A DNA stretch of 42,980 bases from an uncultured Caulobacterales bacterium (GTDB lineage Bacteria; Pseudomonadota; Alphaproteobacteria; Caulobacterales; Caulobacteraceae): the NCBI GenBank assembly GCA_903851655.1, contig CAINOV010000266.1:1-42980 (forward strand). Reading direction: 5' to 3'. Positions 3,608 to 6,958 of this stretch are shown here, one piece after another (position 1 is the stretch's first letter; the number at the start of each line of letters is the position of its first letter). The position numbers and the translations under genes are program-made. The notes under the pieces are model-generated. The model was not told where the DNA came from and searched no databases. It worked only from the letters and a program-made list of their open reading frames with translations.

Positions 3608-4036
3608 GTGACAGCGCCCGCTGACGCCATCGCCCGCCTGACCCGCCGCGCCGAGTTTCTCGCCGCGGCGAAAGGTCGTTACTGCGCCCGGGGCGCAGTG
3701 CTGGTGCAGATGCGTCCCCGGGAGGACGGCCAGCCCCAGGTCCGGGTCGGCTTCACCGCCACCCGCAAGATCGGCGGCGCCGTGGTGCGCAACAAGGCCA
3801 AGCGCCGCCTGCGGGAAGTCGCCCGGGCGCTGCTGCCGAAGCTGGCCCTGCCCGGCTGCGACTATGTGTTCGTCGCCCGCTCCGGCGCCCCGGACCGCCC
3901 CTTTCCGCTGCTGCTCGAGGATGCGGGCAAGGCCCTGGCGCAGCTAGCCCGGGAGCGGACCTCCTCTTCGCCGTCAAGCTCTTCGCCGCCAAACTCTTCG
4001 CCGCCCACCTCTTCGCCGGAAGGCGCCGCCCCATGA
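3608..4036 (+). CDS. rnpA: Ribonuclease P protein component with unusual Ser/Pro tail
   Basis: RnpA is the protein subunit of RNase P and helps the catalytic RNA bind and trim the 5' leader of pre-tRNAs. This 142-residue protein starts with GTG. It carries the conserved N-terminal [19 protein letters not shown] segment, the [24 protein letters not shown] region that includes the RNR motif, and the [11 protein letters not shown] strand. The fold should end near residue 118. The remaining 24 residues are a low-complexity Ser/Pro tail encoded by a 15-bp tandem repeat (3964-4023). The stop overlaps the engB start (ATGA). The normal downstream genes yidD and yidC are missing at this point. Confidence 0.95.
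3964..4023 (+). repeat. 15-bp tandem repeat, four copies, in the 3' end of rnpA
   Basis: Four head-to-tail units share CTCTTCGCCG followed by five variable bases (TCAAG, CCAAA, CCCAC, GAAGG), starting at 3964, 3979, 3994 and 4009. Because the unit is a multiple of three it keeps the rnpA frame and encodes the SSP-type tail. The block sits exactly at the rnpA-engB junction. Confidence 0.9.
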
Positions 4037-4698
4037 CCGACACCCCGCTGTTCACGCCCGAGGCCTTGGAGAGCGCGCGGATCCGCTTCGCCCATCCGGT
4101 GGAGTTCGTCATGGGCTGCGCCCAGATCGACCAGCTGCCGCCCCCCGACGCGCCGGAGGTGGCCTTCGCCGGGCGCTCGAACGTGGGCAAGTCCAGCCTG
4201 ATCAACGCCGTCACCGGCCGCCACGGCCTGGCCCGCGCCTCGTCCGAGCCCGGCCGCACCCGGGAGGTGAACATCTTCCGCATGGACTGCGGCGTGCGGC
4301 TGGTGGACCTGCCCGGCTACGGCTTCGCCAAGGCGGCCAAGACCGACACGCGGAAGTTCCAGAACCTGGGCCGGTCCTATCTCCGCGGCCGGCCGAACCT
4401 GAAGCGGGTCTATCTGCTGATCGACGCCCGGCACGGCCTGAAGGCCGCCGACACCGAGGCGCTGGACGCCCTCGACCTGGCGGCGGTGTCCTACCAGATC
4501 GTGCTGACCAAGGCCGACAAGATCCGCCCGGCGGAAGCCGCCGCCGTGGCCCAGCGGTGCCTCGCATCCATCGCCCGGCGCCCGGCGGCGTTCCCGCGGG
4601 TGGCGGTCACCTCGTCCGAGACGGCGGGCGGGATCGCCGAGCTGCGCGCCGAGATCGCCCTGGCCGCCGGCCTGCTGGACGAGACCGCCCTCGCCTAG
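4033..4698 (+). CDS. engB: Ribosome biogenesis GTPase EngB/YihA
   Basis: A 221-residue TRAFAC-class GTPase needed for 50S subunit assembly. Motifs in order: G1 [10 protein letters not shown], a switch I region with RTREVN, G3 DLPGYGFAK, and G4 TKADK, followed by the family-specific end [19 protein letters not shown]. Length and motif spacing are typical. The ATG overlaps the rnpA stop by 4 bp, which suggests translational coupling. In related bacteria yidD and yidC usually stand between these two genes, so direct fusion of the operon here is unusual. Confidence 0.95.
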
Positions 4699-4719: not shown

Positions 4720-5832
4720 TCAGGTCAGCCGGACCGTCAGCCCGTCCTCGAAATCCCGCAGCAGGTCGGCGTATTCGTCGAAGGGGATTGGCGTGTCCCC
4801 CAGGGTGTGGGTGCGATAGCGCCAGAACTGGACGATGTGCTGCAGCTGGCCGATGGAGTCCCCCAGCTGCACGAACAGGCTGGGCGCGCTGAGCAGGAAG
4901 CGCTTGAAGGCCAGGGGGTTCTGCGCCGAGGTCATCTCGGCGTAGGCGCGGTCGTAGTTGGAGATGATGTCGGCCAGCCGGTTGTAGGTGGTGACCATGG
5001 CCCGGCCCAGTCGCCGGCGAGACGCCTCCAGCGCGATCTGCGCGTCGGAATCGACCCCGCGGATCGGCTGGCGGTCGCGCATCTCCCGGACCACGGGGGC
5101 GATCTGCTCCTCCACCGCCTTGGCGCACCATTTGTAGTAGAGAAAACCCTTCCAGCAGAACATGCCCTCGCGGAACTCGGTGTCGTTCAGCTTCAGCACG
5201 TCCCGCAGGGGCTCCATCTCCTTGTCGTACTGGCTCGACAGCAGCTTCTTCACCAGGCGGTTGATGCTCTCCGTATGCGACCGCCCCATCAGGGACATGG
5301 CCACCAGCTGGGAGATCTCCTTGAAGACGAAGCTCTCCATCCGCGCCACCTCGCCCAGGCCGAGCTCGAAATAGCGGGGATCGGGATAGACCCCGTGCCG
5401 CGCCAGCCACTCCCGCAGCAGGAACGGATCGAAGGAGGGCAGCCGCTCCAGCGCCTCCATCACCCGGATGTCCGTGGGCCGGGCCGAGACATCGACGCCG
5501 GTGGCCTCGGTCAGGGTCTCGATATAATTGCGCTGCCCCACGAACAGATAGCGGCCGCCTGCGTCCAGGTTGGAGAAGTCGATGGGGATCAGGATCTTGG
5601 TCGCCGTGGTGCGGCCGTCCTCGAAGATCTCCGTCTCGTTGCGGCGCAACCGGTGCTTGATGACGAAGCACTTGTTCAGGATGTGGTGGGAGAAGAACGG
5701 CTTCTCGATGGGCTCGTTGTCCAGCTGGGCGTTCTCCATCACCCGCAACAGGTCGAGCACGCGCGCCGTCGAGCCGGCCTTGTGCAGGCGGCTCAGGCTT
5801 CGGACACTGGTTTCGACCTGCGGACTGGCCAT
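4720..5832 (-). CDS. Conserved-looking hypothetical protein, 370 residues
   Basis: I do not recognise this family. The protein is soluble, with no signal peptide or clear membrane helix, and is rich in charged helical segments (for example EREGMFCWKGFLYYKW-like aromatic stretches in the middle, and LRDVLKLNDTEFREGMF before it). The N-terminal third contains HHILNKCFVIKHRLRRNE and a beta-rich segment GRTTATKILIPIDFSNLDAG. The base composition by codon position is typical of neighbouring genes, and the frame is intact, so it is a real gene. It converges on engB with a 21-bp gap and is divergent from argB. An ATG at 5832 is the only sensible start. Confidence 0.8.
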   Translation of the reverse strand: MASPQVETSVRSLSRLHKAGSTARVLDLLRVMENAQLDNEPIEKPFFSHHILNKCFVIKHRLRRNETEIFEDGRTTATKILIPIDFSNLDAGGRYLFVGQRNYIETLTEATGVDVSARPTDIRVMEALERLPSFDPFLLREWLARHGVYPDPRYFELGLGEVARMESFVFKEISQLVAMSLMGRSHTESINRLVKKLLSSQYDKEMEPLRDVLKLNDTEFREGMFCWKGFLYYKWCAKAVEEQIAPVVREMRDRQPIRGVDSDAQIALEASRRRLGRAMVTTYNRLADIISNYDRAYAEMTSAQNPLAFKRFLLSAPSLFVQLGDSIGQLQHIVQFWRYRTHTLGDTPIPFDEYADLLRDFEDGLTVRLT

Positions 5833-5911: not shown

Positions 5912-5989
5912 TGCCCAACGGCGGGGCGGAAGGCCGGGCGGAAGGCTGGGGCCCGCGGACAGGGTCCGGTGAAATCTTCACTCCCCTTG

Positions 5990-6004
5990 GCCGAAGCTTT
6001 CGGC
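5990..6004 (+). promoter_or_regulatory. Small hairpin in the argB leader
   Basis: GCCGAA-GCT-TTCGGC forms a 6-bp stem with a 3-nt loop ending 12 nt before the argB ATG. It could influence ribosome access or be chance in GC-rich DNA. Confidence 0.25.
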
Positions 6005-6016
6005 TATCTCGCCCCC

Positions 6017-6958
6017 ATGACCGACGCACCCGCCACCGACGCCCCGCAGGCCAGCATCGAGGAACAGGGCTGGGCCACCGCCAGGACCCTGGCCGAAGCC
6101 CTGCCCTATATCCAGATCTATGACCGGGAGACGGTCGTGATCAAGTACGGCGGCCACGCCATGGGCGAGGAGAGCGTGGCGCAGAAGTTCGCCGCCGACG
6201 CGGTGCTGCTGAAGCTGCTGGGGGTGCACCCGGTTGTGGTGCACGGGGGCGGACCGCAGATCAGCCGGATGCTGGATCGGGCCGGCGTCACCTCCACCTT
6301 CGTGGACGGCCTGCGGGTGACGGACAAGGCCACCATGGAGGTGGCCGAGATGGTCCTCTCCGGCGCCATCAACAAGGAGATCGTCCACTGGATCAACCGC
6401 GCCGGGGCCGAGGCCGACGTGCGCGGGGTGGGCCTGTCCGGCAAGGACGCCCGGCTGATCACTGTGGACAAGGCCACCCGCACCCGCAAGGACCCGGAGT
6501 CCAAGCTGGAGCAGGTGGTGGACCTGGGCTTTGTCGGCGAACCGACCCGGGTGGACCCCAAGATCATCGAGGCCCTGATCTTCGCCGACCAGGATTATGT
6601 GCCGGTGATCGCCCCGATCGGCGTGTCCGACGCGGGGGAGACCTACAACATCAACGCCGACACCGTGGCCGGCGCCCTGGCCGGCGCGCTGCGGGCCAAG
6701 CGCATGCTGTTGCTGACCGACGTGGCAGGCGTGCTGGGGGCCGACGGGCAGCTGGTCCGGCAGATGACCGTGGCCGAGGCCCGCGCCGCCATCACGGACG
6801 GCGTCGCTCGAGGGGGCATGATCCCGAAGCTCGAGACCGCCATCGCCGCGGTGGAGGCGGGGGTGGAGTCCGTGGTCATCCTCGACGGCCGTCGGCCCCA
6901 CGCCATGCTGGTGGAGCTGTTCACCGAGCACGGCGCCGGCACGCTGATCAAGCCATGA
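6017..6958 (+). CDS. argB: Acetylglutamate kinase
   Basis: ArgB phosphorylates N-acetyl-L-glutamate with ATP, the second step of arginine synthesis in the cytoplasm. The 313-residue protein has the amino acid kinase fold motifs [10 protein letters not shown] (phosphate-binding Lys and Gly loop), VVHGGGPQI, the substrate-binding [11 protein letters not shown] region and [10 protein letters not shown]. The N-terminal helix before VVIKYGG fits arginine-inhibited hexameric enzymes. I place the start at the ATG at 6017; an in-frame GTG at 5969 would add 16 residues across the leader hairpin and is less likely. The stop overlaps the next gene by ATGA, and dapD follows, so arginine and lysine genes are cotranscribed. 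Confidence 0.95.

Follow-up and report, generated by a model that had tools for sequence, protein, structure and literature searches.

Relocation of yidC from the rpmH-rnpA-engB cluster in one genus of Caulobacteraceae, and a candidate yidC promoter within rnpA of its relatives

In six genomes that form one genus of the Caulobacteraceae, rnpA is joined directly to engB, and yidC, which stands between these two genes in the rest of the family sample, is found at a distant site. Comparison of the genomes shows, as far as sequences can, a single relocation of the native yidC to a new site common to all six members. The starting point was a window of 42,980 nucleotides, the whole of contig C266 from a 3.85-Mb genome in 419 contigs (G000). 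Our overall reading, in which we have considerable confidence, is that yidC moved on the stem of the genus, that an RpoD-type promoter inside rnpA serves yidC in the rest of the family, and that rnpA was released by the move from a constraint still visible in its relatives.

According to this reading, a single relocation on the genus stem lifted the native yidC out of an rpmH-rnpA-yidC-engB cluster. The gene came to lie near etfBA, after a methyltransferase-like gene, and rnpA and engB were left overlapping in the sequence ATGA. Elsewhere in the family, yidC would be served by its own RpoD-type promoter within the C-terminal coding end of rnpA, of the form CTTGACG, 16 nt, [GT]AYAAG. The moved yidC would have a promoter of the same type, TTGACG-N17-GATAAG, upstream of it. 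The features of the window on which this account draws are collected in Table 1.

Table 1. Features of the 42,980-nt window discussed in the text
Feature	Position	Strand	Remarks
rpmH, ribosomal protein L34	3412..3546	+	NCBIfam TIGR01030, 77.7 bits, above cut-off
rnpA, RNase P protein component, 142 aa, S/P-rich tail	3608..4036	+	GTG start
rnpA codons aligned with the element of the relatives	3911..3943	+	alignment columns 123-133; element absent here
15-bp tandem repeat, 3.7 copies, in frame in the RnpA tail	3964..4018	+	Tandem Repeats Finder (TRF) score 82
ATGA, overlap of rnpA stop and engB start, 4 bases	4033..4036	+	identical in 6/6 genus members
engB (yihA/ysxC), ribosome-biogenesis GTPase	4033..4698	+	TIGR03598, 205.6 bits, above cut-off
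370-aa protein, dispersed multi-copy family without known domain	4720..5832	-	tblastn copies, null domain searches
argB open reading frame	5969..6958	+	listed with GTG start; ATG at 6017 is the likelier start

Gene order in the window, the family and the class

In the window, rpmH, rnpA and engB follow one another on one strand, as in the alphaproteobacterial cluster, and neither yidC nor yidD lies between rnpA and engB. The four-base overlap of the two genes without an intervening yidC, described in the first-pass annotation, was confirmed. RnpA matches PF00825 with 71 bits over residues 9-113 and TIGR00188 above its cut-off, and an Rfam scan of the window returned none of 4227 families at the gathering score. 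The open reading frame further downstream is, judging by its sequence, a putative argB; used as a query, it matched beside engB in many of the relatives' loci.

Between engB and the presumed argB lies the gene for a 370-aa protein, which has no match in Pfam, NCBIfam or PADLOC and no significant match among the PHROGs. Members of this family gave seven tblastn matches in the genome of the window and 12 in G001, and 36 of 60 genomes of the Caulobacteraceae had one or more. A copy stands beside engB in G000, G002, G003 and G004 and not in G001, and the contig of G005 ends within engB. Copies were also seen beside uvrB in G006, G027, G039 and G050, and G001 and G004 have copies some 9-10 kb away from yidC. 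As a separate observation, three loci of the same genus (L166, L164 and L161) contain long tandem arrays with TRF scores of 663, 425 and 417.

It had been proposed that yidC must lie elsewhere in the genome, and a genome search found it on contig C226 as a single match (G000:C226:4788-5411, minus strand), the protein scoring 687 bits against the NCBIfam equivalog with its cut-off of 365. The yidC open reading frame as listed (L019, 4701-6560, minus strand) opens with a TTG inside the conserved upstream -35 box described below. Comparison with G003-G005 indicates that the start is likely the ATG of MDNENSRN, 23 codons further in, which would give a protein of 596 aa.

The family sample comprised 149 genomes from 22 genera, of which three gave no match for engB and two none for yidC; both genes were found in 146. 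In 140 of the 146, yidC precedes engB, the matched domains being 119-848 nt apart; the exceptions are exactly the six members of this genus (G000-G005), all with rnpA joined to engB by ATGA and no yidC between. The suggestion that yidC had been relocated was thereby upheld. Fragmentation of metagenome-assembled genomes was considered as a cause of the separation and is ruled out by G004, an assembly of about 20 contigs, because engB there lies on a contig of 436 kb and yidC on another of 253 kb.

Among 80 named loci, yidC stands beside engB in 77, and 69 of these span the whole cluster from rpmH to engB. The other three, L081, L082 and L110, come from genus members (contigs of G003, G002 and G005) and entered the counts once. 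A tblastn search with the YidD of the window's genome found no YidD in any of these 80 loci around engB. The usual order had been given as including yidC and, optionally, yidD. The position of yidC just before engB held in a wider sample of the class, where yidC lies at most 3 kb upstream of engB in 76 of 83 genomes with both genes; the optional yidD was not seen in the relatives' loci. A loss of yidD as part of the same event is ruled out by its absence from all 80 loci; in the window's genome yidD gave a single match, on another contig (G000:C6:10298-10477, plus strand). The seven exceptions in the class sample are the window's genome and G171, G180, G186, G197, G211 and G225; in the last six, the separation may be a move or a contig break. 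Separation of yidC from engB thus occurs elsewhere in the class, and among the sampled members of the family no other genus shows it.

A conserved element at the 3' end of rnpA and its counterpart at the moved yidC

The 77 named loci with the old order yielded 70 from outside the genus in which RnpA could be used (seven had no usable RnpA). In 64 of these, the pattern CTTGAC-N17-[GT][AT][CT]AAG occurs in register at the 3' end of rnpA, and neither form of the element was found in the other six. The strict form, CTTGAC-N17-GAYAAG, is present in 28, the -10 part not being uniform, and CTTGAC is found in 69. The commonest codons are CGT TTG CTT GAC GAT GTG AAA AGC GCG CTG AYA AGG, so that the region encodes RLLDDVKSAL[IT][RS] in rare codons. 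For example, the leucine of column 124 is CTT in all 70 loci, and 2.8% of the leucines encoded by their yidC and engB genes use CTT. Column 128 is AAA in 67, column 133 begins with AG in 67, and column 132 ends in A in 68, among them ACA in 30, ATA in 29 and TTA in 7, codons that account for 1.4%, 0.7% and 0.1% of their codon families.

When all 884 columns of rnpA, yidC and engB were ranked for conserved rare codons, columns 132, 128, 124 and 133 took the first four places in that order. With the set thinned to 19 RnpA sequences below 70% identity, columns 124, 128, 132 and 133 kept the codon in 19, 17, 18 and 17 of the 19. Rare codons are also kept near the 5' end of rnpA, at columns 23, 11, 21 and 16 (fifth, seventh, eighth and ninth of 884), and rnpA is therefore not codon-neutral overall.

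We also took the best match to TTGACG/GATAAG in the 200 nt upstream of yidC, for which seven of the 77 non-genus loci were unusable. A match of at least 10/12 was obtained in 67 of the remaining 70 as against 15 of 1000 control windows, the controls having been pooled from genus loci rather than from the rnpA genes of the relatives and including yidC upstream regions. Hexamers of the -35 and -10 types at a spacing of about 17 nt, and a constraint on the DNA beyond the protein code, were both found for this candidate promoter. We infer that the element is a promoter, at which transcription would be started by RNA polymerase with the housekeeping sigma factor. Its form fits the -35 box published for Caulobacter crescentus, TTGaCgS, and so supports an RpoD-type reading (PMC8144410).

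Outside the family the element is rare. Of 70 class loci, 42 had an rnpA open reading frame, and under a laxer score than that used for the family the element was found at the same codons in one (L291, 11/12); two others scored 10 elsewhere in the tail and the remaining 39 scored at most 9. We read the element as an innovation of the family or of a slightly older ancestor.

In the genus itself, the element is present in none of the six rnpA genes, against 64 (relaxed) or 28 (strict) of the 70 others, and the aligned codons of the window read CTG CTC GAG GAT GCG GGC AAG GCC CTG GCG CAG. The encoded residues have changed as well. Trp120, invariant in the 70 family sequences, is replaced by F or L in the genus; the 42 class RnpA have F, Y or W there (22, 15 and 5). 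Asp125, likewise found in 70 of 70, becomes E, K or D, and Lys128, found in 67 of 70, becomes G or R; both positions vary in the class set. At the new site, TTGACG-N17-GATAAG stands upstream of yidC in all six genomes with 12 of 12 matches, at about 64-124 nt from start codons estimated from tblastn matches. Both hexamers and the 17-nt spacing are kept among the genus copies, and the spacer sequence differs. On comparison, rnpA shows a synonymous constraint, the genus shows its release, and the moved yidC shows a new upstream motif.

Did the promoter travel with the gene? The sequence TTGCTTGACG, which reaches beyond the -35 box, is found in four of the six genus copies and in 44 of the 70 copies embedded in the relatives' rnpA, and this favours a promoter that travelled with yidC rather than arising anew. 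The spacer, 17 nt in all six genus copies and 16 nt in the few embedded copies compared, does not decide the point. It is quite possible, though we lean a little the other way, that yidC left its promoter behind and, at its new site, captured or evolved a housekeeping promoter of similar form. The difference in spacer length would fit this, no other similarity was seen around the motif, and TTGACG is the ordinary -35 sequence of this group of bacteria (PMC8144410); against such a capture stand the shared TTGCTTGACG and the 12/12 match in every genus copy.

We think it unlikely that the element acts instead at the level of the mRNA (in translation, processing or a leader structure of yidC) or reflects a constraint on the protein. 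Such a reading would account for the residues being as conserved as the codons, and for the AAA of column 128, conserved in 67 of 70, which falls in the spacer, where a plain promoter makes no demand. However, CTT in 70 of 70 loci at a synonymous position rules out an explanation purely at the level of the protein, and beyond the family these residues are variable. Between the element and the rnpA stop codon there are anywhere from 14 to 50 codons, so the element is not a ribosome-binding signal. In addition, the new site repeats two hexamers at a fixed spacing with a changing spacer, which is the geometry of a promoter and speaks against a signal in the mRNA.

If the element is the yidC promoter, then the departure of yidC would have relieved rnpA of promoter duty and the element would have been lost, so that the codons became ordinary and the residues drifted. 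It is reasonably probable that the C-terminal residues of RnpA across the Caulobacteraceae have been dictated by the DNA of the yidC promoter, and that the tail drifted towards the pattern of the class after the move. With yidC gone, engB in the genus probably relies on transcription reading through from rpmH-rnpA, and on the ATGA overlap for coupling of its translation. Co-transcription of yidC, as reported for Mycobacterium tuberculosis (PMC6244158), may also take place in this family.

Origin of the moved yidC and of the tandem repeat

In all six genus members yidC follows the same gene of about 260 aa on the same strand, and this shared neighbour points to one event. The gene is called methyltransferase-like only from NCBIfam matches far below their cut-offs, and it has no Pfam match. 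Further upstream lies etfBA in the four genomes with a contig that reaches so far (G001, G003, G004 and G005). The downstream neighbour of yidC is not the same throughout the genus: G001, G002 and G005 have uvrB there, and in G000, G003 and G004 the place is taken by a gene with Sel1 repeats.

Nine etfBA loci of other genera were compared, and downstream of them we found neither yidC nor the methyltransferase-like gene; a 3-hydroxyacyl-CoA dehydrogenase gene (by Pfam) directly follows etfA in four of the nine, and in one more it is present at a greater distance. At the etfBA locus of the sister lineage L251 we saw no neighbour that is conserved. With the exception of a weak methyltransferase-like match of 31% in L212, no neighbour from the genus site was found at the 16 uvrB loci compared from other genera. 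The exact insertion point of yidC was not found among these etfBA and uvrB loci.

The YidC tree was built from 72 of the 141 extracted rows, the 69 omitted being 12 of 30 class rows and 57 of 75 named rows. In it the six genus sequences form one clade with an SH-aLRT of 100 inside the Caulobacteraceae, and their sister, with a support of 98, is L090, a lineage with the old gene order. Within the genus, identities to G003 and G004 are 91-92% for YidC, in parallel with 94-95% for EngB. In the EngB tree, from which G005 was left out, the genus is not one clade (two changes), and this tree is poorly resolved, with four of its 26 inner branches well supported. The new neighbours of yidC might suggest a replacement, in which a yidC of foreign origin arrived at the new site and the native copy was deleted. 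We consider this very improbable, and we reject horizontal replacement on the evidence of the YidC tree, which nests the six copies within the family beside an old-order lineage; the parallel identities of YidC and EngB speak against it too.

The tail of RnpA in the window contains a 15-bp tandem repeat with 90% matches, the highest-scoring of 67 repeat rows in the window. It begins about six residues past the end of the PF00825 match, codes SSSP/SSSP/NSSP/TSSP in the rnpA frame and stops 14 nt short of engB. As a repeat it stands out only slightly, since a best score of at least 82 arose in two of 60 order-2 Markov copies of the window, and the same genome has higher-scoring repeats (104 in L019 and 89 in L020). 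Tandem Repeats Finder reported a repeat in rnpA of the window's genome alone, and no repeat row in rnpA of the other five genus members (G001-G005). In the closest relatives, G003 and G004, at 94-95% EngB identity, the RnpA tail is short and unrepeated, ending in LARERAAPPTQGTPP and LARERAAPPPEGSPP.

The first-pass annotation had regarded the repeat as a scar of the deletion or relocation of yidC, later enlarged by slippage, but although it is real, the strongest in its window and close to engB, this origin has next to no credibility and is ruled out, because the relocation is common to six genomes and the repeat is confined to one, where it lies in frame within RnpA shortly after the conserved domain and is outscored by repeats elsewhere. 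The compact, repeat-free junctions of G003 and G004, of the kind named in advance as grounds for giving up the proposal, dispose of the scar and leave the relocation standing. The repeat would then have arisen later and independently of the move, as an in-frame expansion of the RnpA tail in a single species.

Comparison with known systems

The locus shares with the alphaproteobacterial rpmH-rnpA-yidC-engB cluster the order and strand of rpmH, rnpA and engB and an ATGA at the junction. It differs in that yidC is at a distant site in all six members of this genus, four of which have a gene of the multi-copy 370-aa family after engB. In Mycobacterium tuberculosis, which belongs to another phylum, rpmH, rnpA and yidC likewise lie in one cluster, and yidC is reported to be co-transcribed with the other two from a promoter upstream of rpmH; this common promoter is the difference from our case, none inside rnpA being described in the portions of that report available to us (PMC6244158).

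A precedent for regulatory information of the next gene in the 3' end of a coding sequence is the trmD/rplS overlap of C. crescentus, where the translation signal of rplS lies within the coding end of trmD, as shown by recoding (PMC8144410). That signal acts on translation and has been proven experimentally, whereas the rnpA element looks transcriptional and is known by comparison.

If our reading is right, Trp120, Asp125 and Lys128 of RnpA have been kept for the transcription of a neighbouring gene, and the move of yidC amounts to a natural knock-out of an overlapping regulatory code. An oddity of gene order would thus serve as a natural experiment, in which the move of yidC reveals the gene that is served by an internal promoter and a coding sequence can be seen released from regulatory duty. 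For a model family, it would also supply an exact candidate promoter of an essential insertase, and it calls for caution in genome recoding and in taking the conservation of rnpA codons or residues as a constraint on the protein. The candidate rnpA promoter would be of the RpoD (sigma-73) type, a designation that goes beyond the wording of PMC4287350.

Transcription starts inside operons are well known in C. crescentus (PMC4287350, PMC4117421, PMC7595951), with 209 operons containing internal transcription start sites in one data set (PMC4287350) and 460 containing internal primary ones in another (PMC7595951). The words yidC and rnpA do not occur in the main texts of these three papers, and the start may already be mapped in their datasets. 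A literature search, judged by titles and the openings of abstracts, found no paper on a yidC promoter inside rnpA. The candidate resembles these internal promoters as an RpoD-type start within an upstream gene that would serve the gene downstream; it differs in having been proposed from family-wide conservation in the rare codons of rnpA and from a counterpart at the moved gene. We would place the candidate yidC promoter embedded in rnpA in this known class of operon-internal starts, and we regard the relocation of yidC as an unusually clean natural control.
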